DNA from: Tropicimonas sp. IMCC34043
GTDB taxonomy: Bacteria > Pseudomonadota > Alphaproteobacteria > Rhodobacterales > Rhodobacteraceae
Length of the DNA stretch: 64,000 nucleotides
Assembly: GCF_003390845.1 (NCBI RefSeq)
Contig: NZ_QMEK01000005.1
Span: 62,001-126,000, forward strand
Reading direction: 5' to 3'
Part shown: positions 651 through 12,548 of the stretch, piece by piece
How the letters are laid out: the number at the start of each line of letters is the position of its first letter
Numbering within the stretch: position 1 is the first letter of the stretch
The notes under the pieces: generated by a model
Databases searched by the model: none
Told to the model about the DNA's origin: nothing
Seen by the model: the letters and a program-made list of their open reading frames with translations, nothing else
Made by a program: the position numbers and the translations under genes

Positions 651-674
651 CCGGTCGGGCCCCTGCCCGGCCGG
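651..674. terminator. Stem-loop between convergent genes
   Basis: Bases 651-660 pair with 665-674 around the loop CCCT (661-664), with one T-G wobble in ten pairs. It fills the 37-base gap between the convergent stops at 637 and 675. There is no T-run on either side, so it is a candidate bidirectional terminator judged by position and stem strength only. Confidence 0.45.
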
Positions 675-3600
675 TCACTTGCGGGTCATCACCTCGATCC
701 CGTCCCAGGTTGCCGACAACCCGCCATCGGCCAGTTCGACGCAGCGCGCCGCCATCCGGCGGCCCACGACATCGTCGGGATTCTGCTGGACAACCTGCGA
801 AAACGTGTTGGTCGCGACCGTCAGATCGCCTGCCTGCAACCGTCGCACCCCGTGTTCGAACAGCTCGCGCGTGGCGAGCTTCAACTCCTGCACTTTGGTG
901 CTTTCCCAGGCAAAAATCTCGAACACGTCGACGGGGTGCTGCTTGCCCAGCACGCGCACAGTCCCGAGCCGGCGATGCGGGAAGCGCTCGGGGTCGGGCA
1001 GGCCGATAATCGTCTGTTCCGAGGCCGCGATGCCGATCCCGAACTGGGCGGTCAGCCCCTCGAGCCGTGCGGTCAGGTTCACCGTGTCCGAGACCACGTT
1101 GCTGGTGCGGCGGAATTCGTCGCCAAGAACCCCGACGATCAGATCGCCGCGGTGCAACCCGATCCCGGTCCCGATCGGCCGCCGCCCCGATGCGTGCCGG
1201 TCGAGATTGAACCGCCTCAGTTCGCGCTGGATCTCGACTGCCGAATGGACCGCATCCTCGGCGCTGCCGGGAAACAGCGCCATCATGCCGTCGCCCAGAT
1301 ACTGGCTGACGACGCCGCCGCTGTTCTGCACGATCGGCCCCATGCGCGAGAAATAGGCGCTGAGAAACTCGAAGCTCTCCGGGGCCGTCAGCTCCTCGGC
1401 CAGCGTCGTGAAACCGCGGATGTCGGTGAACATGACCGTCATGGTACGCGCCACGTTGTCGCCAAGCGCAATGTCGAGAATGGACTGGCGGTCGAGGAAT
1501 TTCAGGAACTCGTTCGGCACAAAGCGCTCGTAGGCGGTCGAGATCCGCGCCAGGTCGATATGGGTCCGCATCCGCGCCGACAGCTCGTCGCGCGAAAACG
1601 GCTTGGTCAGATAATCGGTGGCACCTGCATCGAACCCCGCCCGCAGATCCTCGACCTGGTTCTTGGCGGTCAGAAGGATAACCGGCAGACGCGCGGCCGG
1701 GTGGGTCCGACGGATCGTCCGGCAGACCTCGTAACCCGACATGCGCGGCATCATCACATCGAGGATAACAATGTCGGGTTCATAGCCTTCCGACAGGATC
1801 CTGAGCGATTCCTCGCCGTTCCTGGCCTGGACGACCCCGAAGGATTCAAGCTGCATGAAGTTCTGCAGCACCTGCAGGTTCACCAGATCGTCGTCGACGA
1901 CGAGCGCGCGATACTGGGTTGCGCCACCCTTCGGCTGGGCCCAGGGACCGCGGCCGGAAAGTGGCAGGCTGACGATTCCGGCGGCATCGAACAGCTCCGG
2001 TTCCTGCACGACGGGCAGCAATGGCGTCGGCGCCGGCGTGCGCAGCCGCGCGACCGTCGGGCCGGCACGCAGGGCCTTGCTGTCGCTGGTAGCGGGCAGC
2101 GAGAAGGTAAAGCGCGCGCCCTGCCCCGGCACAGAGCGGACCGAGATCTTGCTGCCGTGCAGTTCGACCAGACTGCGGGTGATGGCAAGCCCCAGCCCGA
2201 CGCCGCCATGGAGCCTCTGGGTCGAGGCATCGGCCTGCTCGAAGCTGCGAAAGATCCGCTCGTGAGCCTCCAGCGGGATCCCTTCGCCGTCGTCGACGAC
2301 GCTGATCGCGACCTGCCCGGTCCCGGCCTCGGCTTCGGCCTCGACCCGCACGGTGCCGCCGGCGGCGAACTTGCTGGCGTTGTCGACGAGGTTCAGCAGG
2401 ATCTGCTGCAGCCGGTCCTCGTCGGCCAGCACCAGCGCATTCTCCTTTGGAACCGCGTTGACCAGTTTTGCAGGCTCGGCCATGTCGCGCGCGGCAATCA
2501 GCGACAATACAACCTCGACCAGCGCGTGCAGATCGACCGGCCGCACCTCAAGCTCGAACTCGCCGTCGCGCAGCCGCGAGAAATCGAGGATGTCATTCAC
2601 CAATCCCGAAAGCCGCTTTGCCGACCCCGCGATCAGATCGAGCGTCTGTGACGCCGCCCCCGAAAGCGGGCCCGCCGCCCCGTCGATCATCGATTCCGCC
2701 AGACCGATGATGCCGTTCAGCGGCGTGCGCAACTCGTGGCTGGTGTTGGCAAGGAATTCGTCCTTCAGCCGGTTGATCCGAACCAGTTCGCCACTCGCCC
2801 GCTTCTGGGTTTCGAGCGCTTCCTGCTGGCGGGCAAACAGCATCGCGTTGCTGAGCGAGACCGCCGCAAGGCTGACGATGGTCGCCACGATCTCGCCCCG
2901 TCCTTGCGTGAAGACGCCCCGTGCGAGCGAGTTCTCGAGGTAAAGCACCGCCTTCAAGGAACCGGAGCTGGCGACCGGCAGGCACATCACCGATTTCAGC
3001 CCCTTGTTGCGAACGTATTTCAGCGCGTCGAACCGGTGATCCCGCAGGGCATCGGCCGTGATCTCGGTCGCCGAGGTCGCCGCAACCCGGGTCACGATCT
3101 CGACCGGATATTCCATCGGATCGAGGGTCTCGAGAGCCAGGAAATCGGGGTGAACCTGTACTTCGGTTTCCGAGCCGACGATCCGCGCCTCGGCCGCCAG
3201 CCGCAGCGCGTTCTCCTGTGCAAGATACAGCGCCCCGGAATCGGCGCCGGCGTTTTCCATCGCAATGTGCAAAAGCCGTTCCAGCAGCGTGTCGAGATCG
3301 GAAATCTCAAGGATCGCCTGGCTGGCCTTGATGATTGTCGACAGGTCGAGTCCGTCGGCGGACCGGCTAGGCAGCGCGACGGCGGAATCGGCAAAGAGCG
3401 TCCGATGGCTTGCGGCGAGCTGGCGCTGCTTTGCAACCGCGCCCCAGTGGCCATAGGCGGCATGGGCGCGCAGGATCAGCCGGTCGCGCGCATCGGCATC
3501 CCCCAGCGCCTCGGCCGCGGCCGCCCCGCATTCGGCGGCGATCCCGGCATAGCTCCAGATCCGGTCCGACTCGGCCAGCCGGCAGGCCCGTTCGATCAGG

Positions 3601-6600
3601 TGCAGCGCGTCCTCGTATCTGCCCCGGACGCGGGCGATCTCGCCCGACAGAAGGATGTGCTGGAATCCGTGGTTCACCGGGAACTTGGTGGCCAGACGCC
3701 TCAGCGTCCTGAGGTGCCGGCGGATCCGCGCCCGGCGCCGGCGCCGCGACAGCGGCACCGCCGACAATGGCGCGCGGGTCAGGCTGAGACCCGACAACAG
3801 GTGATAGTCGACGAATTCCGGGCCGAGTGTGGTGAAGCCCTCCTCGGCCCGCATCCCCTGATACAGATCGTCCAGCACCGCCCAATCGCCAAAGATATGG
3901 GTCATCAGCATCTGGGTGGTCAGGAAACTTCCCAGCGACGCCTCGCCCTGCATCCTCGCCTGCAGCGCGCTGTCGCTCTGCTGCCACATCGTCGCCGAGG
4001 CAGGGCCGGTCAAGCGTTCGACCGCACGGCGATAGATAGCGCAGATCGAATCCAGCACCTCGTGGTGCAGACGCTTTTGATAGCGTTCGATGTCGTCCAG
4101 CTGATCGACCAGTTCGTTCAGCGGAACGCACATGATCCAGGAATATTTCAGGATGCCGTAATAGAAGTACCCGACATATTCCAGTTCGGCCGCGTTCCAG
4201 CTGTTGCCGACCCCCTCGCGCATCAGCTCGCGCAACTCGCCGTATTTGCGGAAATGCCAGGCGATCACCATCGAGAAGGTATAGTAGAGCCGCCCGCGCA
4301 CCTGGGCGCTGATCCCGCGCGTTTCGAGCAGCGGAAACAGGTTGGTGCCGATCCTGTGCGCCCGCTCGGCCGAGCCGAAGGCCAGGTAGATGACGATGGC
4401 ATAGTTCTGGATCGAGGCGAGCCCCGCGCTCGTCAGCCCGTCGTGGAGCGTGATGCGGAACATCCGCAGCGCGATCAGCACGAACAGGTCCTTGCTTTGC
4501 AGGAATGCCGGGGTCGAGACGATCATCAGCATCCCGATCAGCTGCTCGGAGGCCGCGTTGTCCATCGTCGGCAGGGTCGAGAAATCGAAGACATCGTGGC
4601 GCCGGACCTCGATCTGGGTCAGCGCGAGCTGTTTGGCAATCTTCGGCCCATAGGGCTTCGACAGATCGACCCCCAACAGCTTCAGCCCCTTGATGCCATA
4701 GTCGAGCGCCTGCGGATACTGCGAGCGGAAGGTGAACAGCCCGACCAGGATCTGATAGACCATGGCCCTGTCGCGGTCTGTCGGCAGGCGGGCAATCAGG
4801 GTCTCGAAATGCGGCCTCGCGACCTCGAAGCCCGACAGCAGGAACTCGGTCTCCATGATTTCCAGCTCGAGCGCGCGGGCAACCTCGGGCTCGGTGTCCC
4901 AGTCGATCCCGGCAAGCTCGGGCGGAAGGTTCGAGACAGCGGTCAGATAACGCTGCGCGATGTCATAGGCCGCCACCCCCTTGGCACGCCGCGCAGCCGC
5001 CAGACTGCAGCGCGTCAGATGCCGGCCAAGCGACGGTTCGGTCAAAAGCTCGATCCCGGCAGCGAACTGGTCGAGCGCCAGAAACAGCCGGTCGTCGATG
5101 TCGGGGTTGGCGATGTCGCGCAGCAGGTGGGCGCCGATCCGATAATGCAGCCGCTTGCGTTCGCCCTCGTCGATCAGCTGATAGGCGGACTCGCGCACCA
5201 CATCGTGGCTGAAGCTCCACTGATCGGAATTGTCGGCGGCGCCGCGCACGACGAATCCCTCGCGCGCGGCCTCGGTCAGGACAGGCTCAAGCTCCTTGCC
5301 CGGCCGCTCCATCAAGATCCCCAAGGACTGGACCGAGAAGGTCGTGCCAAGGACGGCGGCATGGGGAAGTGTGCGCAATGCACCGACCGAAAGCCGTTCG
5401 AACCGGTCGGTCATCAGCGCGGCGACGTCGGCATCGACCAGCCGCCGCGACACCGCATCGAGCGCCCATCGCCAGCGCGCCGCCTCGACATCGAAGCGGA
5501 TCGCCCCCTCGTCCTGAAGCGCGATCACCAGGCGGCGCAGGTGGAAGGCGTTGCCCTGGGTCTTGGCATGGACCGCCTCAGCCAGACCACGGACCGCGTC
5601 GCCCGGAAGGTGCAGCGCATCGGCAAGCATCGCCGAGGTGTCTTCGACCTTCAGCTGTGCAACATCGAGAAGGCAGGTCGGCACCCGGGATTCCTCCAGC
5701 GCCGCGATCAGACGACTGACCCGGTGGGTCAGCCCGACCTCGTTGTCGCGATAGGCCCCGAGGACGATCAGGTTTTCAAGCGGCGCGCTGACCAGCACGT
5801 CCTCCAGAAGGTCGATCGAGCCCGTATCGGCCCATTGCAGATCGTCGAGGAACAGAACCACCGGCTCGCTCTGGCTCGACAACAGCTCGAAGAAGCCCTG
5901 AATAGCGATCCGGAACCGCTGGTTACGCTCCATCGGGTCCTGCACCGGCGGGGCCGACAGCTCGCCGACCAGCGGCTTCAGTTCGGGCAGGAAGTCCGCG
6001 ACCACGGCGAGGTTCTCGCCCAGCCTTTCGCGCAGTTCGCCAAGGAACTTCTCCAGCTCGATGGCGCCGCGTCCGATCCGGGTCAGGACGAATTCGCGCA
6101 GCGCGTCGAGAAGGGCAAGATAGGGCAGCCGCTGAAGCTCGTCGTACTTGCCCGACAGGAACGTCGCCTGGTGCGAGGCGGTCGCGAGCTCGCGCAGATG
6201 CTCGGCCAGCGCCGATTTGCCGGCCCCGCTGCGCCCGCGCAGCATCACCACCTCGGCCTTGCCGGAAAGCCCGCGCGCGAAGACCGCGGTCGCGGTCGCG
6301 ATCTGGGCTTCGCGGCCATAGATCCGGTCGGGGATCCGGAAGGCTGCCAGCGCATCCTTCTGGCCCAGCTCGAACCCCGGGATCTCGCGGTCGACGCGAT
6401 AGGCGGCCTCGCAGTTGTGAAGGTCCGCCCAGAGCCCATAGGCGGTCTGATAGCGGTCCTCGGGTGCCTTTTCGAGCAGCTTGCGAACGATCGCGGCCAG
6501 TGGCGGCGGCAGGTCCGGGCGCATCCGGGCAAGATCGGGGGGGGCTGCGGCCAGGTGCATGTGCACCAGTTCCATTCGGTCGATGGCCTGAAACGGCGGC

Positions 6601-7187
6601 CGGCCGGCCAGCATCTCGTGGAACACCACCCCAAGCGCATAGAGATCGGCGCGCAGATCGACCACATTCGCGGTGCGCCCGCTTTGTTCGGGCGCGCAAT
6701 AGGACAGGTCGGCCAGTTCCAGCCCGTCGGCATCGCCCTGCCGCACCGCCGGCCGCGCCAGACAATCGGGATGCAGCGCCAGCTGCAGGCGCCGGGTTTC
6801 GGGCTGGATTCGGAAGGCCGCGGGAGAGATATGGCCGTGCATCATGCCAAGCGCGTGGACCGCCTGCACCGCATTGGCCATCTGCACCGAGATCTCCAGA
6901 AAGTGGTCAACGCGCACCGGGCCGGGCTGCACCAGTCGCCCGAGGTCGATCCCCACCGGCTGTTGCATGAACAGGCTCGCCGCGTCGGCATCGACCTCGA
7001 ATGCCAGTGGCCGGACAATCAGCCCCGGCAGATCGCCGAGCACCTGTTTCAGCCGCGTGGCCCCCCGCGCCGCCTGTTCGGGCGTGACGGTGCGGCCATA
7101 CCACACCAGCGCGGGCGTGTCGGCGAATCCGGCGTCGGCAGTAATGGGCCCGCGAACCCCGTCGCGTCGTCCCGATTGAACGGTCAT
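675..7187 (-). CDS. Giant pseudokinase-AAA ATPase-GAF-histidine kinase-receiver-nucleotide cyclase
   Basis: This is a 2170-residue soluble signalling protein; I see no signal peptide or membrane span. Domains in order: protein-kinase-like fold (about 20-265), AAA/STAND-type ATPase with Walker A GRSGAGKS (318-325) and Walker B LFLDDLQWAD (about 445-454), a long helical TPR-like region (about 680-1270), GAF (about 1295-1445), HisKA with H-box His about 1484, HATPase with N-box Asn about 1603, receiver with phospho-acceptor Asp about 1810, class III adenylate/guanylate cyclase (about 1910-2065) keeping both metal Asp (about 1922 and 1966), then a short TPR-like tail. The kinase catalytic loop reads HGHISP (117-122) instead of HRDxKP, and no DFG is visible, so the first domain is probably a pseudokinase. 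It is the last gene of the operon, 22 bases after the 335-residue gene. Outputs may include phosphotransfer and cAMP or cGMP; the ligand is unknown. Confidence 0.9.
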   Translation of the reverse strand: MTVQSGRRDGVRGPITADAGFADTPALVWYGRTVTPEQAARGATRLKQVLGDLPGLIVRPLAFEVDADAASLFMQQPVGIDLGRLVQPGPVRVDHFLEISVQMANAVQAVHALGMMHGHISPAAFRIQPETRRLQLALHPDCLARPAVRQGDADGLELADLSYCAPEQSGRTANVVDLRADLYALGVVFHEMLAGRPPFQAIDRMELVHMHLAAAPPDLARMRPDLPPPLAAIVRKLLEKAPEDRYQTAYGLWADLHNCEAAYRVDREIPGFELGQKDALAAFRIPDRIYGREAQIATATAVFARGLSGKAEVVMLRGRSGAGKSALAEHLRELATASHQATFLSGKYDELQRLPYLALLDALREFVLTRIGRGAIELEKFLGELRERLGENLAVVADFLPELKPLVGELSAPPVQDPMERNQRFRIAIQGFFELLSSQSEPVVLFLDDLQWADTGSIDLLEDVLVSAPLENLIVLGAYRDNEVGLTHRVSRLIAALEESRVPTCLLDVAQLKVEDTSAMLADALHLPGDAVRGLAEAVHAKTQGNAFHLRRLVIALQDEGAIRFDVEAARWRWALDAVSRRLVDADVAALMTDRFERLSVGALRTLPHAAVLGTTFSVQSLGILMERPGKELEPVLTEAAREGFVVRGAADNSDQWSFSHDVVRESAYQLIDEGERKRLHYRIGAHLLRDIANPDIDDRLFLALDQFAAGIELLTEPSLGRHLTRCSLAAARRAKGVAAYDIAQRYLTAVSNLPPELAGIDWDTEPEVARALELEIMETEFLLSGFEVARPHFETLIARLPTDRDRAMVYQILVGLFTFRSQYPQALDYGIKGLKLLGVDLSKPYGPKIAKQLALTQIEVRRHDVFDFSTLPTMDNAASEQLIGMLMIVSTPAFLQSKDLFVLIALRMFRITLHDGLTSAGLASIQNYAIVIYLAFGSAERAHRIGTNLFPLLETRGISAQVRGRLYYTFSMVIAWHFRKYGELRELMREGVGNSWNAAELEYVGYFYYGILKYSWIMCVPLNELVDQLDDIERYQKRLHHEVLDSICAIYRRAVERLTGPASATMWQQSDSALQARMQGEASLGSFLTTQMLMTHIFGDWAVLDDLYQGMRAEEGFTTLGPEFVDYHLLSGLSLTRAPLSAVPLSRRRRRARIRRHLRTLRRLATKFPVNHGFQHILLSGEIARVRGRYEDALHLIERACRLAESDRIWSYAGIAAECGAAAAEALGDADARDRLILRAHAAYGHWGAVAKQRQLAASHRTLFADSAVALPSRSADGLDLSTIIKASQAILEISDLDTLLERLLHIAMENAGADSGALYLAQENALRLAAEARIVGSETEVQVHPDFLALETLDPMEYPVEIVTRVAATSATEITADALRDHRFDALKYVRNKGLKSVMCLPVASSGSLKAVLYLENSLARGVFTQGRGEIVATIVSLAAVSLSNAMLFARQQEALETQKRASGELVRINRLKDEFLANTSHELRTPLNGIIGLAESMIDGAAGPLSGAASQTLDLIAGSAKRLSGLVNDILDFSRLRDGEFELEVRPVDLHALVEVVLSLIAARDMAEPAKLVNAVPKENALVLADEDRLQQILLNLVDNASKFAAGGTVRVEAEAEAGTGQVAISVVDDGEGIPLEAHERIFRSFEQADASTQRLHGGVGLGLAITRSLVELHGSKISVRSVPGQGARFTFSLPATSDSKALRAGPTVARLRTPAPTPLLPVVQEPELFDAAGIVSLPLSGRGPWAQPKGGATQYRALVVDDDLVNLQVLQNFMQLESFGVVQARNGEESLRILSEGYEPDIVILDVMMPRMSGYEVCRTIRRTHPAARLPVILLTAKNQVEDLRAGFDAGATDYLTKPFSRDELSARMRTHIDLARISTAYERFVPNEFLKFLDRQSILDIALGDNVARTMTVMFTDIRGFTTLAEELTAPESFEFLSAYFSRMGPIVQNSGGVVSQYLGDGMMALFPGSAEDAVHSAVEIQRELRRFNLDRHASGRRPIGTGIGLHRGDLIVGVLGDEFRRTSNVVSDTVNLTARLEGLTAQFGIGIAASEQTIIGLPDPERFPHRRLGTVRVLGKQHPVDVFEIFAWESTKVQELKLATRELFEHGVRRLQAGDLTVATNTFSQVVQQNPDDVVGRRMAARCVELADGGLSATWDGIEVMTRK

Positions 7188-7209
7188 GTTTCAGCCCGGT
7201 TTGTGGCGT

Positions 7210-8217
7210 TCAGTGCCGCATTGTCCCGGCGGCCGCGAAATTCGGAGTCGCAACCAGCGAGAAATAGGCCTTTGCAATATCCGGGCCAACGCCGTCGCGA
7301 GCAACAGCCAGTTTCACATGGTTCAACCCGAAATCGAGCAGGGTCGGGAATGTCGCCCCATCCAGTTCCCCGATCGTGCGGCGGGGCGCAAGCTGGCCGA
7401 GTGCCGCGGCCTTGGCGGGCGAGGCCATTCCTGCGCCGGCAAGACCCGCGACGAGATCGGTCATCTCTCTGCGCGATACGGCCGGGATCTCGATCCCGAG
7501 GCCGGGAAGCAGCGCCTGCCCGAGATCGAGGTCGAGCCGCACCGGCCCATCCTGCGCCAGACTCGCCGCCGTGGCGGCAAGGCTGCGCGCGCGCGCGGCG
7601 GCACCGGGCCACGCGACCCTGTTCAGAAGGCTCGGGATGGCGGCCGCGGCCAGCCCTTCGATCACCAGCCGCAGCGAGGCAGGACCGCGCTCGTTCCGAC
7701 CTGCCATGATGCCGATCTGGCGCAGATGCGCCCCGTCCGGCAATTGCGCAAGCAGACGCTCGAACGCGGCCTGCGGCATGTCGCGCCCCAGAGCCTCGGC
7801 CAGTCCTCGTGCCAGCGCAACCGTGCCATCGGCATCGACCGGCCCCGTGGCAGGCGCCACAAAAAAACTCGGCAGCCCGGCCGAACCGTCGCTATCGAGA
7901 TCGAATTCCAGCCAGAGTACACCCGCGGCCGCCGGTGGCATGGCGCTGGCAGTCAAAAGGGATGCGGTCTGACCCAGCAGATCGGGCCGGGCCAGCGCCT
8001 GCTGGCGCATCCTTTCGATCCCGTGGCCGGGCAACAGCGCCACCGAATAATCGGCAGCGCCCGCCGGACCATCGAGCCGAAGCTCGAAGACATGCCCGGT
8101 GGCGGCATCGGGCAGCAGGGATGCAAACCGCGCCAGACCCCGCCCGCAAGCCGAAGACAAAAGCGCCGGACCAAGCGCCGCAATGGCCGCAGGGACGGCA
8201 CGCGCCGGACAGATCAT
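7210..8217 (-). CDS. Putative ABBA-fold (peptide) prenyltransferase-like protein
   Basis: 335 residues, Ala/Leu-rich, cytoplasmic. I recognise no named family by direct match. By inspection it alternates helices with five beta-hairpins: about 42-49/56-63, 99-108/115-122, 165-174/180-189, 225-232/239-246 and 299-306/313-323. Five beta-beta units separated by helices, about 60 residues apart, is the plan of ABBA prenyltransferases, a ten-stranded barrel; 335 residues also fits that group, including the cyanobactin TruF/LynF/PatF enzymes. The third hairpin (RQIGIMAGRNERGP, then SLRLVIEGL) resembles my recollection of the TruF group. The last hairpin has AKAYFSL, with K316 and Y318 where ABBA enzymes use Lys/Tyr to bind diphosphate. 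It sits 34 bases after the 79-residue peptide gene and 22 bases before the giant sensor. This assignment is inference from pattern; another beta-rich fold is possible. Confidence 0.45.
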   Translation of the reverse strand: MICPARAVPAAIAALGPALLSSACGRGLARFASLLPDAATGHVFELRLDGPAGAADYSVALLPGHGIERMRQQALARPDLLGQTASLLTASAMPPAAAGVLWLEFDLDSDGSAGLPSFFVAPATGPVDADGTVALARGLAEALGRDMPQAAFERLLAQLPDGAHLRQIGIMAGRNERGPASLRLVIEGLAAAAIPSLLNRVAWPGAAARARSLAATAASLAQDGPVRLDLDLGQALLPGLGIEIPAVSRREMTDLVAGLAGAGMASPAKAAALGQLAPRRTIGELDGATFPTLLDFGLNHVKLAVARDGVGPDIAKAYFSLVATPNFAAAGTMRH

Positions 8218-8251
8218 TGCCCGCTCACGCCGCCCCCGCGATCATCATGGC

Positions 8252-8491
8252 TCACCAGAGGTACTTGCAGATGTTGTCGCCGACGAAGTCGCTCAGCTCC
8301 TTGCCGCTCTTGCTGACAATGGCGGTCGCCACATCGGTGGGGATGCCCACCTTGTCGGTCAGAAACTGGCCCGCCGAGGCCGGATCCTGAAGATAGATGT
8401 TCATGAATTCGCCGCGCAATGCGTCGTTGTCGAAAAGCTTGGCCGTGGCCATGGTCGCATAATACTCGGGCGTACCCTTTGCAGTCGGCAT
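8252..8491 (-). CDS. Small 79-residue peptide, possible modified-peptide precursor
   Basis: A real small gene: the ATG at 8491 has a Shine-Dalgarno AAAGGACA six bases upstream, and it lies in a compact operon (54 bases after the CXXCH protein, 34 bases before the ABBA-like gene). The protein is soluble and mostly helical (about 10-72), with a DALRGEFMNIYLQDP segment followed by FLTDKVGIP. It ends in NICKYLW, with its only Cys at 75, Tyr 77 and the only Trp at the last position. A long acidic helical leader with a short tail rich in modifiable residues is typical of ribosomal peptide precursors with Nif11- or LigA-type leaders, but I cannot assign it to one. If the next gene is a prenyltransferase, W79, Y77 or C75 would be natural acceptors. 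It could instead be a small accessory subunit. Confidence 0.75.
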   Translation of the reverse strand: MPTAKGTPEYYATMATAKLFDNDALRGEFMNIYLQDPASAGQFLTDKVGIPTDVATAIVSKSGKELSDFVGDNICKYLW

Positions 8492-8545
8492 GGTTTGTCC
8501 TTTCTGCCGGTTGGAAAATGGTTTCGGGGGTCTGCCCCGCTCTCG

Positions 8546-10030
8546 CTAGTTCCCCTGAACGGCCGCACTGCGTTGCAGCACGTACTGGTCAAAGGCAAAG
8601 ATGAAATCGAGCATGCCGCGCTTTGCACCGGTCCAGTCCGGCCGGGCCAGGGCATGACACTGCAGACAGTTCGACTCATTCTGGGTGAAGGTCTCGATCA
8701 CGGTATTGCCGAGGATCTCGGGCACCGGGACGCCCACGCCCGAGGGGCCGTATTGCTTCCATTGCGTCCCCTTCAGGTGATAATTCTCGAACACCGATCC
8801 CTCGAGCGCCATGTGCATGCGGATGTTGATGCAGCTGAATTCCTGGTTGGAGGGCGGACAGGGGTCGTTGCCACTGCTGGCGGCGCCACCGGGAGAAACG
8901 GGCCCGAAATAATAGCCCGGCGGATAGTTCTGAACGACAAGCGAGGGGATCTTTTCCAGCGCGGTCTTCGGCGGCCAGTTCGGACCGCGCGATACTGCCT
9001 GATCGACATCATAGAAGATCCAGTCGGGCACCGGCTTGCCGTCCTGGAAATGGCCCTGCCCGGTCGCACCGATCTGCGACCAGAGCGGCGCGGCATCGAC
9101 ATGCTCGAAGGTGCCCCAGGCCCAGTCGGGCATTGTCGCCGTCTTGTAGACCAGATGCATCCCGACCAGCCCGACCGGCACCAGCGCGCAGTCGTGGCTG
9201 CTGCGGCCGTCGTCGATGACCGGGGTGACATAGGCCCAGGACTTGTGAAACCGTTCGGGATCGTCCTTCGCATCGAGGATTTTCCACGCGGCCTTGGCGA
9301 TGATGGCGCCGCGCACCGGCGGGTCGTTCGGGTTCGATCCCCAGGTGCCGGAGGGCAGATCGAGCTTGCCCTGCGCTTTCAGATAGGACTCGAGCTGGAC
9401 GGCATCCCAAAGCCCGTGCGCGACCGTGTAGTCATAGGCCTGACGGTTGAACAGCGACTCGTAGCGCACCGGTTGGCCCGCGGCATCGAGCAGCGCGTCG
9501 CCATCGGGATTGACATAGGTGCTGAGCAGTCGCGGTTCGATATCGTTCGGGATCTTATCGGCAAAGGGAACGGCGGCCATGGCAGCCTTTGCATCGATCT
9601 CGCTGCAGGCCGCGGGCAGCGGATGCTCGGTGCTGTCCCATGGAAGCGGTGGCTTGCCGGGGCGGAAGATCGACGCCGTGCTTTTCCAGGTGTCCCAGAC
9701 CGTGGTCCAGTCGCCCTGTCGCGGCGCGGTGAAATCCGGCGTACTGACGATGACCTTGCCGTCCGTTGCCTTGGAAACCGGCCAGTTCAGCGCCACGAAG
9801 GCCCGTGAGGACAGCGGATCGACCTGGGTCACCGTGGGAAAGTTCACGTCGCCGATGAAACAGGCCGCCCATTGCGGATCCTGAAAGGTATAGCCCGCCT
9901 GCTTGCAGGTGCAGACAAGCTGGTCGGCCGGATCACAGGCAGCCCCCGCCCCCTGTGCTTGCGCGAGGGCGGGAAGGGCGGCTGTCGCGCAGGCGATGAA
10001 GGCGGAAATTCGGGCGATCTGCACGGGCAA
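8546..10030 (-). CDS. Secreted protein with one c-type haem motif (cytochrome-like)
   Basis: 494 residues with a clear Sec signal peptide (MPVQIARIS, a hydrophobic core, then ALAQAQG), so it acts in the periplasm or outside the cell. A single CLQCH haem-binding motif lies near the C-terminus at C455-C458-H459. The mature N-terminus has a Cys-rich stretch (CDPADQLVCTCKQAG). The 430-residue region between is rich in Trp, Pro and Asp, and I do not recognise its fold; an enzyme or ligand-binding domain carrying a cytochrome c tail is plausible. It is the first gene of the operon that continues with the 79-residue peptide, the ABBA-like protein and the giant sensor, so it may sense or process an extracellular compound linked to that system. 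Confidence 0.7.
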   Translation of the reverse strand: MPVQIARISAFIACATAALPALAQAQGAGAACDPADQLVCTCKQAGYTFQDPQWAACFIGDVNFPTVTQVDPLSSRAFVALNWPVSKATDGKVIVSTPDFTAPRQGDWTTVWDTWKSTASIFRPGKPPLPWDSTEHPLPAACSEIDAKAAMAAVPFADKIPNDIEPRLLSTYVNPDGDALLDAAGQPVRYESLFNRQAYDYTVAHGLWDAVQLESYLKAQGKLDLPSGTWGSNPNDPPVRGAIIAKAAWKILDAKDDPERFHKSWAYVTPVIDDGRSSHDCALVPVGLVGMHLVYKTATMPDWAWGTFEHVDAAPLWSQIGATGQGHFQDGKPVPDWIFYDVDQAVSRGPNWPPKTALEKIPSLVVQNYPPGYYFGPVSPGGAASSGNDPCPPSNQEFSCINIRMHMALEGSVFENYHLKGTQWKQYGPSGVGVPVPEILGNTVIETFTQNESNCLQCHALARPDWTGAKRGMLDFIFAFDQYVLQRSAAVQGN

Positions 10031-10187
10031 AATTCCTGTCCTGTCCGATTTCGTCTATCCGGGGCAATCTGGAAACCGTCTCACTCGACCGGAACGCTTT
10101 GGGCCCGCTGGTATCCAGGCCGGTCGCACTCCTGCCCGAACAATTCCCGAGTTCGTATCACATCGCAACAAATTTTCTTATACTCTA

Positions 10188-10200
10188 CGGTATATTACCG
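10188..10200. promoter_or_regulatory. AT-rich palindrome upstream of the CXXCH-protein operon
   Basis: CGGTA-TAT-TACCG is a perfect 5-3-5 inverted repeat inside the most AT-rich stretch of the 209-base gap (10031-10239). It sits about 160 bases upstream of the operon's first start codon. It could be an operator or a promoter core (TATATT). Confidence 0.35.
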
Positions 10201-10239
10201 GCTTTCTGACGGGAAAATACCGAATGCCCGAGGCCGCAC

Positions 10240-11292
10240 TCAACCGGTCACGGCAAGTCCCTCTGCCGTAAAGAAAAGCTGCCATTTCGGGTCAAGGATC
10301 AGACCGATGCGATGGCCCGGACGCAGTCCCGCCTCGCTTGGCGCCCGAACCGTAACCTGCCCCAGGTCGCCGCCGTCGATAATGAGATATGTGTCGGCGC
10401 CGAGGTATTCGACCACATCGACCGTGCCGTCAAAGGCGCCCTCGCCCTCGGCACCGAGGACGATGTGTTCGGGCCGCACCCCGATGAAATCCGCGGGCGT
10501 TGCGAAGGGATAGGCCCCGCCCCGCCCGCCCGGCAAGCGGAACTGCCCCTCCCCGGTCGTGCAGGGCAGAACGTTCATCTTGGGCGAGCCGATGAACTGC
10601 GCCACGAACAGGTTGCCCGGGCGTTCGTACAGTTCCTTCGGGCTGCCAATCTGGGCGATCCGGCCCGCCTCCAGCACCACGATCCGGTCGGCGAGCGTCA
10701 TCGCCTCGACCTGATCGTGGGTGACATAGATCATCGTCGTCGACAGCGCCTGATGCAGCTTGGCGATCTCGTATCGCATCTCGACCCGAAGGGCCGCGTC
10801 AAGATTGCTGAGCGGCTCGTCGAACAGGAACGCCGTCGGATCGCGCACGATCGACCGGCCGATTGCCACCCGCTGCCGCTGCCCGCCCGAAAGATCCTTG
10901 GGCCGGCGCTCCATGTAGGGTTCAAGTTTCAGCACGCGGGCCGCCTCGGACACCTTGGCCTCGATCTCAGATTTCGGCGCGCCGGCGGTCTTCAGGCTGA
11001 ACCCCATGTTCTCGGCCACTGACATATGCGGATAAAGCGCATAGGACTGGAACACCATGGTCAAGCCGCGCTTCGCCGGCGGCTCGGCGGTCACGTCGCG
11101 CCCGTCGATCAGGATCTGGCCACGCGAGGTTTCTTCGAGCCCGCCGATCATCCGCAACAGCGTGGACTTGCCGCAGCCCGACGGCCCGACGAAGATCACG
11201 AATTCGCCGTCGCCGATCTCGAGGTCCACCCCCTTGATGACCTGCACGTTGCCGAACCACTTTTCGACCGCCTTGAGCGTGATCGCCCCCAT
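10240..11292 (-). CDS. Sugar ABC transporter ATP-binding protein (MalK/UgpC type)
   Basis: 350 residues. It powers the importer encoded by the three genes starting at 16532, 15094 and 13767. Walker [10 protein letters not shown] (about 37-45), Q-loop Gln in [10 protein letters not shown], signature LSGGQRQR, Walker [12 protein letters not shown] and switch His in THDQVEAMT are all present. A C-terminal OB-type regulatory domain (GVRPEHI onward) is typical of the MalK/UgpC/MsmK group. The ATG at 11292 overlaps the TGA of the glycosidase gene by one base, which fixes the start; a longer open frame continues upstream but only as a shadow of the glycosidase gene. It is the last gene of the operon. 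Confidence 0.93.
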
Positions 11293-12548
11293 CAGAACCT
11301 CCCTTCTGCCTGCGGCGACGCCCATGCCAGCCACACCGCCGCCGTCCAGGTGAAATGCCCGCCGCCTGCGGGCGTGCCGTCGCGCGGACTGAAATATTCG
11401 GCAAAGCCCGAGGCGGCGATCAGCGCCTGCGCATCGCGGCGCAAACGTGCGGCCTCGGCCCCGTGGCCCATCTCGGCGAGCCCGAGCCCCGCGAGCGCGT
11501 TCAGGATCGCCCAGACCGGCCCGCGCCAATAACGCAGCGGATCGAATTCGGGATGCGCGGGGTCGAGCGAGGGAAGCATGAAACGCACCTCGTCCGCGAT
11601 CCGGTGCAGATGCGCCAGCATGCCGGGGTTTTCGATCCCGGCGTACCAGTTCAGAAACGACGCGTTGGAGAGTGACCCGGTGAACGCCCCGCTGCGCAGA
11701 TCGACCGAATCGTAATAGCCGCCGTCGGGATTCCAGTGGCCCTCCGCGCCCTCTGTCAGCGCGCGGATCCAATCCTCGATCTCGCGGGTCGGCTTGCCAA
11801 CCTCCTGCGCCAGCACGGCAAGATCCCGGCAGGCGCGCAGCAGGATGAAGCTCATGCCGACATCGGCCACCCGGAACGGCCCGCGGTCGCGGATCGTGGC
11901 CTCGTCCCAGCCGCAGTCCCGGCCAAAGCCCACCATGGCCAGATACCGGTCGTATTCCGCCTTTTTCGGCCGCTGGCCCGCGTCGACCTGTTGCAGGTCG
12001 CGCCGCTGATAGCTGCCAACGCCCGAGGTATCGACCGCCTGCATTGCAAGGTCCCAATCGGGCGCGTTGTCGCGGCCGGTCTCCCAGGGGTGGGTGACGG
12101 CCACCATGCCGCGTTCGACCCGCGCATCCATGAACCAGCGGTGCCAGCGCAGCAGCCCGTCGAACAGCCCCGCGATCCGCGGCCTGCCACGATCCGGATC
12201 TGCCATCAGCACCGCGCGCGCCATGGTCGCGACCACCGGCGGCTGGGTGATCCCCGAGGTTGGCGGCTGGTTCCCGACCCCCCAGACCTCGGGTCCGGGG
12301 AAATACCCCGGCGCCGGTTCGTGAAAGATCATGTGCGGCACCATGCCATTCGGCCATTGCGCCGCCATCAGCGTCTCAAGCTCGGTCCAGGCGCGCTCGA
12401 CATCGAAGCGCGAAAATCCCCAGGCCGCAAAGGCGCTGTCCCAGTTCCACTGGAAGGGATAGAGCATCGCCGTCGGCACGGTATAGCGCCCGCGATCGTT
12501 GTCGCGCAGGATCCCCCGCGCCGCCTGATCGAGTGTCTCGTGGTGCAC
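11292..12548 (-). CDS. GH63/MGH1-like glycoside hydrolase
   Basis: 418 residues, no signal peptide, so it acts in the cytoplasm on the imported glycoside. The sequence has the (alpha/alpha)6-barrel hallmarks of the GH63 / mannosylglycerate-hydrolase-like group: [13 protein letters not shown] near residue 33, [12 protein letters not shown] near 98, and a late [14 protein letters not shown]. Known relatives hydrolyse mannosyl- or glucosylglycerate or alpha-glucosides. Because the gene sits between permease and ATPase genes, the transported compound is probably its substrate. The start is a GTG at 12548 with AAGGA six bases upstream, lying inside the end of the permease gene. Other GH15- or GH37-like alpha-barrel glucosidases are possible alternatives. 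Confidence 0.75.

Follow-up and report, generated by a model that had tools for sequence, protein, structure and literature searches.

Positions 675 to 10,030 of the window, by which we mean the whole 64,000-nucleotide stretch analysed here from Tropicimonas sp. IMCC34043 (contig NZ_QMEK01000005.1, positions 62,001 to 126,000), hold four minus-strand genes whose products we call C494, P79, A335 and S2170 after their lengths in residues. The open reading frame (ORF) list bore out the coordinates and gaps given in a preliminary description of this DNA, with 54, 34 and 22 bases separating the genes from C494 to S2170. The first three products had been left without an assigned role, and none of them has a Pfam or NCBIfam family above cut-off. 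We propose, with a probability of about 0.6, that this operon is a prenyl-peptide signalling unit formed by A335, P79, S2170 and C494. The genes and short features are as follows:

8546-10030, minus strand: C494 gene (494 aa), first of the operon (ORF list)
8654-8668, minus strand: haem-binding motif CLQCH (CxxCH), the only one in C494 (sequence reading)
8252-8491, minus strand: P79 gene (79 aa; ORF list)
8255-8281, minus strand: P79 core G-x-N-[V/I]-C-x-Y-L-W, ending in Trp79, the proposed prenylation site (orthologue alignment)
7210-8217, minus strand: A335 gene (335 aa; ORF list)
675-7187, minus strand: S2170 gene (2170 aa; ORF list)
651-674, minus strand: GC-rich hairpin 3' of the S2170 stop codon, without a T-run and with shuffles equally strong

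The four genes occur together across genera. A P79 search of 198 genomes of the family matched 28 at E 1 or better, and the sole convincing match besides the window was Seohaeicola zhoushanensis (G431, Roseobacteraceae; E 1.6e-22, 51% identity; next E 0.012); we put the weak matches in 26 others (E 0.012 to 0.88) down to chance. G431 carries all four genes in unchanged order (identities to the window: C494 56%, P79 51%, A335 41%, S2170 56%). A two-sequence A335 profile had matches in 6 of the 292 genomes searched from the order; two of the five outside the window, G557 and G646, carry the full set (C494 50 and 53%, P79 38 and 60%, A335 43 and 36%, S2170 54 and 53%, respectively); two weak A335 matches (G068 and G093, E 9e-4) were dropped when blastp did not confirm them. 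Searches of the order with C494 (14/292 genomes at E 1e-5 or better) and with the N-terminal part of S2170 (5/292 at E 1e-40 or better) gave close matches in the same three genomes as A335 (G000, G557 and G646), with E-values of 2.1e-65 or better for A335, 3.3e-272 or better for C494 and 0 for S2170; the next best were 1.7e-13, 1.2e-44 and 1.1e-149. Thus no close match stood alone among the candidates scored, of which there were at most seven, five and two per genome for A335, C494 and S2170 in three 292-genome sets taken as identical. This joint presence and absence of A335, C494 and S2170 rules out ordinary co-location and, with the order and short gaps kept in four genera, upholds the proposal that the four genes form one conserved unit. 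The neighbourhood check suggested for the 79- and 335-residue proteins, run on the 292 genomes of the order and not a census, brought no refutation. Among the genomes searched, clear P79 orthologues occur only inside these operons, and a whole-collection scan with two weak peptide patterns, likewise not a census, matched 85 stretches, of which one (Seohaeicola) was confirmed.

The AlphaFold model of A335 (predicted local distance difference test 87.7, predicted template modelling score 0.90) shows a ten-stranded antiparallel barrel built of alpha-alpha-beta-beta repeats, the ABBA fold. All of the 50 Foldseek and 50 VIA-align matches listed for this model were prenyltransferases, many of the closest being indole prenyltransferases, and an earlier model of lower quality led to the same result, which substantiates the previous labelling of the 335-residue protein as ABBA-like. 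D106, H300, K302 and K316 do not vary among 22 family members, and E104, R174, R183 and Y318 hardly do. Sequence comparison gave no link to known prenyltransferases: A335 itself had one weak DUF2267 match (E 0.055), and Pfam and NCBIfam scans of the 22 members and a PDB profile search matched no curated prenyltransferase model or solved enzyme. Many ABBA families are joined by fold alone. CymD, MpnD, PriB and IptA, whose substrates are small molecules such as free Trp and indolactam, share 8-15% identity with A335 over the aligned length. On the predicted structure, A335 has the ABBA prenyltransferase fold; it is a member of a RiPP-associated family (RiPP, ribosomally synthesized and post-translationally modified peptide) and probably catalyses prenyl transfer.

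The association with RiPPs comes from distant relatives of A335 (the A-family). Distant A335-profile matches from the order search sit in RiPP clusters: in G684 (L044) the gene lies near NHLM-type secretion and export genes, YcaO and TfuA, an arrangement that G706 (L045) resembles, and in G503 (L046) near LanM, a Nif11-like peptide (NCBIfam 26.3 bits, below the cut-off of 32.3) and a protein that reads as cupin/JmjC-like. A seven-sequence A-family profile found matches in 18 of the 385 genomes searched from the class, counting that of the window. Of the 25 matches outside the window, 21 lie in the 20 regions fetched, some of them cut by contig ends and two each from G221, G154, G807, G347 and G244; one match each in G805, G221, G319 and G737 was left out. 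NHLM-type ABC exporter genes, found by phmmer with L044 genes that themselves score above the NCBIfam cut-offs for TIGR03794, TIGR03796 and TIGR03797, occur in 11 of these 20 regions from alphaproteobacteria, of which some share a genome. LanM, Nif11-like, YcaO, TfuA or RiPP radical S-adenosylmethionine (SAM) genes stand beside A-family genes in L044, L046 and L092-L094, and plasmid matches show similar company: LanM and Nif11 in Pseudanabaena, Nif11 and a RiPP radical SAM in Acaryochloris, and LanM-, YcaO- and TfuA-like genes in Azospirillum. Three of seven long A-family versions scanned are fused to a squalene-hopene-cyclase-like domain (L075 and L090 above the cut-off of 26.1 bits, L072 just below it at 24.5); of the others, L092 carries a 2OG-Fe(II) oxygenase domain, and L073, L084 and L094 nothing further. 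We also noticed PqqD-like genes near L072 and L090 and an asparagine-synthase-like gene near L075; these neighbours suggest lasso-type clusters, whose products are perhaps prenylated and cyclised lasso-type peptides. The L092 fusion protein, from a LanM/Nif11 cluster on Pseudanabaena plasmid pPg_03 (11983-13776), is named in its record as a 2OG-Fe(II) oxygenase only.

Two ABBA enzymes of known activity offer the nearest comparison, made by description. MppC, the enzyme of a Nif11/LanM cluster, geranylates its precursor at Trp82 and depends on the leader to do so (PMC12715784); it is likened to A335 as an ABBA-type enzyme of a RiPP cluster that modifies one precursor Trp, but acts on a LanM-cyclised lanthipeptide, and the cited account mentions no sensor. 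NctPC, as reported, is an ABBA prenyltransferase-terpene cyclase fusion that geranylgeranylates Trp (PMC13290415). Its Trp-acting ABBA domain has low similarity to known enzymes. Its fusion is of the kind seen in L072, L075 and L090, which supports a prenyl-transfer role for the A-family, although NctPC has two fused domains whereas A335 has one and belongs to a proposed signalling operon. From the fold of A335 and its RiPP family, the likely modification can be named as prenylation, probably of a C-terminal Trp.

P79 has the makings of the substrate. A small precursor-like gene lies directly upstream of the A335 gene in 4/4 loci, between it and the C494 gene, and its product is 38-60% identical to P79 in the three other operons. 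Codon-position changes numbered 171, 139 and 261 in 468 codon comparisons. Conservation is concentrated at the C terminus, where six of the last nine columns are invariant in the four orthologues as against 16 of the first 70, and all four end in N-[V/I]-C-x-Y-L-W (NICKYLW in the window). P79 had no NCBIfam match at E 1 or better. Aligned to 15 NHLP peptides, its leader part scored higher than 295 of 300 shuffles and the whole peptide higher than all 300.

A terminal Trp also recurs beside A-family genes. Among 30 A-family stretches scanned, the window included, 14 held a total of 31 NHLP ORFs, and 26 of these end in Trp: all 11 in L079, with ten distinct ends, and seven of the eight in L094. 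CCCW ends occur in seven regions and a DSW end in L087, and the Nif11 precursor beside the A-family gene of Pseudanabaena ends in IKW. By comparison, none of 30 NHLP ORFs ended in Trp in ten stretches without an A-family gene in the 14.6-28 kb fetched; five Paenibacillus peptides among them have Trp one residue before the end. These controls were three G091 regions, one G138 region and others from plasmid matches, and include two doubtful precursors, a 459-aa ORF in L155 and one in L158, which was tested, below the NCBIfam cut-off. The profile used was seeded with Trp-ending peptides, and the same profile found the non-Trp controls; the control family TIGR03793 matched 50 of 133 genomes, with just 3 over cut-off and the rest, judged by frame length, apparently resembling nitrile hydratases. 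At the locus level, with L155 left out and L158 and L159 merged, a Trp-ending NHLP ORF was present in 10/15 A-positive and 0/8 A-negative loci (Fisher test, p 0.0027). Trp79 is thus the acceptor that we favour, with fair rather than high confidence. In L079 (G320:C1:1013000-1030000), the eleven NHLP precursor genes flank a single A-family gene on both sides (5334-10893), and their ends amount to a natural library for C-terminal Trp prenylation.

S2170 has the domains of a giant sensor, all above the Pfam cut-offs apart from a TPR-like region with one weak match:

6447-7019, minus strand: Ser/Thr-kinase-like domain (Pkinase; Pfam and orthologue motif check)
5763-6323, minus strand: AAA_16 ATPase with Walker A and B motifs (Pfam and motif check)
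2853-3299, minus strand: GAF domain (Pfam)
2088-2765, minus strand: HisKA and HATPase_c with H-box and N and G boxes (Pfam and motif check)
1569-1904, minus strand: receiver (Response_reg) with its phosphoacceptor Asp (Pfam and motif check)
936-1445, minus strand: class III adenylate/guanylate cyclase (Guanylate_cyc) with both metal Asp residues and the Asn/Arg pair (Pfam and motif check)

All four orthologues keep the H-box, the ATP-binding boxes, the receiver Asp and the metal residues of the cyclase, as in a hybrid histidine kinase-cyclase. In contrast, the Ser/Thr-kinase domain reads HGH for HRD and HP[D/E] for DFG in 4/4 orthologues and is probably a pseudokinase. A sensor that both phosphorylates and makes a cyclic nucleotide, as once suggested, therefore stands for the cyclase and histidine kinase motifs and falls for Ser/Thr phosphorylation: with those catalytic motifs lost, phosphorylation would come from the histidine kinase only. 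A relative of S2170 in G647 (1875 aa; L113 4800-10427) has HKD and DFG motifs, AAA_16, GAF, cyclase and PilZ, with no histidine kinase match, and shows swapping of output modules. To our knowledge, the inputs of giant multi-output sensors are rarely known.

The start of C494 may be GTG at 10024 instead of TTG at 10030, and its N terminus reads as signal-peptide-like and holds a hydropathy peak. The Cys, Cys and His of CLQCH are invariant in the four close orthologues, which are 50-56% identical to the window's protein in the three other genera. C494 is therefore probably a secreted c-type haem protein of the periplasm. Distant relatives occur in 11 of 289 other genomes of the order; eight of their regions were fetched, and a Pfam scan of the neighbours in four (L112, L114, L120 and L121) found a GMC oxidoreductase near the relative in L112 and L114 and, in L112, a cyclase-AAA_16 protein two genes upstream. 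This hints at redox sensing together with cyclase proteins. The L112 gene run (G573, 3773-12221) comprises the C494 relative, the cyclase-AAA_16 protein, a small FAD-SLDH-like protein below cut-off and the GMC oxidoreductase.

Together, these data suggest a model in which A335 would bind the N-terminal, leader-like part of P79 and attach an isoprenyl group to the side chain of Trp79 in the core NICKYLW. Prenylated P79, whole or trimmed to its C-terminal core, would then be an input of S2170, probably entering through the region of AAA_16/STAND-like ATPase, TPR and GAF, and would switch the histidine kinase, receiver and cyclase, whose fusion keeps every output step in one chain. C494 would act in the periplasm, perhaps as a redox input or as a processing or oxidising partner. 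That P79 is an input of S2170 we regard as having somewhat better than even odds; a modified peptide coupled to a kinase/cyclase sensor, the idea put forward at the outset, stays the best reading.

This model is close to two systems from Gram-positive bacteria. In the Paenibacillus alvei cluster, as described, PalQ prenylates the C-terminal Trp of PalX and the locus also encodes the histidine kinase PalP, three genes with no exporter (PMC10853753). The operon is likened to it in the prenyltransferase, the small precursor with a conserved C-terminal Trp and the histidine kinase, again with no exporter named in that account (PMC10853753), and the PalX core DNVRRFFW and the P79 end DNICKYLW share their length and N-[V/I]-x-x-[Y/F]-x-W (PMC10853753). 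This likeness covers few residues and caught our attention after the fact, so we treat it as no more than a lead. The differences are that PalQ has an isoprene-synthase fold and A335 an ABBA fold, that PalX is an NHLP precursor (PMC10853753) whereas P79 has no established NHLP leader, and that, relative to the published Pal cluster, the P79 operon adds a 2170-aa multi-output sensor and a secreted haem protein and has a Gram-negative host. ComQXPA of Bacillus likewise encodes together a peptide, its dedicated Trp prenyltransferase and a sensor kinase, and the locus signals (PMC5331326). According to the cited sources, ComQ is homologous to farnesyl-diphosphate synthases, unlike the ABBA protein A335, and the kinase ComP lies in the membrane and has its regulator, ComA, as a separate protein, whereas S2170 has fused outputs (PMC5331326); the modified Trp of ComX is internal, whereas Trp79 is terminal (PMC10853753). 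The window locus thus brings together an enzyme that is prenyltransferase-like by fold, a Trp-containing precursor and a sensor kinase, as in these systems, without the isoprene-synthase fold of ComQ and PalQ; because of its ABBA fold we liken the operon to PalQXP and ComQXPA in working and do not class it as a member. The statement in the preliminary description that no system of such composition had been described accordingly gives way to these two comparable systems, and holds insofar as their enzyme fold and sensor differ and no haem protein is named in them. In Paenibacillus cellulosilyticus (L161, 11733-16156), we observed four NHLP peptides that end in NVRK[Y/F]xW plus one residue (NVRKYTW, NVRKFVW, NVRKYNW and NVRKYVW), the pattern common to PalX and P79, and a fifth with FIWT; the neighbours include a histidine kinase, which has a weak 7TM match, and a 319-aa protein with no match in Pfam, and the locus looks like a Pal-type one.

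Prenylated peptides with a dedicated sensor have so far been described from Gram-positive Bacillus and Paenibacillus, and our searches found no Gram-negative or alphaproteobacterial prenyl-peptide signalling in the open-licence literature and nothing on HstK-like sensors. It is a tentative proposition, with odds somewhat short of even, that the operon is the first Gram-negative case of signalling by a prenylated-Trp peptide, with a convergent ABBA enzyme, a cytosolic STAND-like reader and a periplasmic haem redox input. If so, the use of peptide prenylation for signalling has at least two origins, the enzymes being unrelated and the peptide ends strikingly alike, and the giant sensor S2170 gains a testable ligand. 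More broadly, the A-family points to a group of ABBA-fold proteins, nameless in Pfam and NCBIfam, in the RiPP clusters of alphaproteobacteria and cyanobacteria, for which the modified residue is clearly predicted.

Several observations weigh against prenyl-peptide signalling as proposed. A335 is tied to characterised prenyltransferases by its modelled fold alone and by no sequence profile, and no result ties C494 to P79. An NHLP or Nif11 leader in P79 finds no firm support in NCBIfam, hhalign (NHLP probability 0.4%) or hmmsearch (E 0.07). The association with terminal Trp has exceptions: five NHLP ends in A-family stretches are Y, F, C, M and Q, the three NHLP ORFs beside the A-family gene of Nostoc (L157) end in S, S and D, and the Nif11 peptide of Acaryochloris and the Nif11-like peptide of G503 end in RYWH and SLSGN. 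Moreover, the Trp loci are not independent, since 7/10 share the CCCW type; with related loci collapsed by judgement, the contrast becomes 4/7 against 0/7 (p 0.07). Within P79, Cys75 and Tyr77 are invariant possible acceptors, and the core is invariant across four genera, whereas ComX pheromones are variable. S2170 has no membrane domain in Pfam, its highest 19-residue hydropathy peak (2.02, at residue 1433) falls at the end of the GAF domain, and it looks cytosolic, unlike ComP. Finally, no exporter, peptidase or separate response regulator is found among the four operon genes.

Some of these points fit an alternative in which P79 is kept whole and its prenylated C terminus, CaaX-like in effect, anchors P79 and the otherwise soluble S2170 at the inner membrane near periplasmic C494. 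The missing exporter and peptidase, the lack of a conserved Gly-Gly cut site in the P79 alignment, the conservation of P79 along its length with an invariant core and the lack of a recognised membrane domain in S2170 are all consistent with such an anchor. However, relatives of A335 adjoin RiPP precursors and NHLP exporters, and precursors of such clusters are normally cut and exported. The missing exporter is itself uninformative because the P. alvei Pal cluster, as described in three genes, also has none (PMC10853753). We regard the anchor as unlikely, at about one chance in five. Comparably unlikely is a different acceptor in an otherwise unchanged scheme, either Cys75 by S-prenylation or Tyr77. 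In its favour are the invariance of both residues and the several A-family precursors that end in CCCW, CCCF or CCC; against it, the L079 ends shown have no Cys and those of L094 mostly none, the terminal Trp is what these two sets share, and many of the nearest folds of A335 are indole prenyltransferases. A cryptic antibiotic or redox natural-product operon is improbable. In this reading P79 would be the source of a secreted, prenylated, bacteriocin-like peptide that C494 oxidises, with S2170 just as its regulator. A-family relatives do sit in secondary-metabolite-type RiPP clusters and the C494 relatives of L112 and L114 near GMC oxidoreductases, but the four genes lack both an exporter and a recognised gene for immunity, and the core hardly varies from genus to genus. 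That A335 is a non-catalytic ABBA-fold binder of P79 or of a small molecule would fit its lack of a sequence match to characterised enzymes, yet is highly improbable given the four invariant and four nearly invariant residues in 22 members and the relatives fused to terpene-cyclase-like domains.

At the far end of the operon, the stem-loop noted previously as strong is present, but its -19 kcal/mol is no more than expected of such GC-rich sequence (z -0.06 against shuffles) and, with the T-run also absent, a strong terminator after S2170 is not supported. A promoter scan gave a single match, on the opposite strand. The four-gene cassette occurs patchily and seems to move as one piece, because carriers are scattered within genera and the flanking genes are unlike: P79 carriers, including those already known, number 1/2, 1/1 and 1/7 genomes in the genera of G431, G557 and G646, no A335 match was found in eight genomes of the window's own genus, and in the stretches compared the flanks of the four loci share no more than an ABC ATPase of a common kind and a single short ORF. 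Neither A335 nor P79 was found on plasmids. An ORF match of 68 residues (62% identity) lies just outside two of the four operons (L042, 2069-2707; L043, 7181-7603) and is possibly the remnant of a mobile element.

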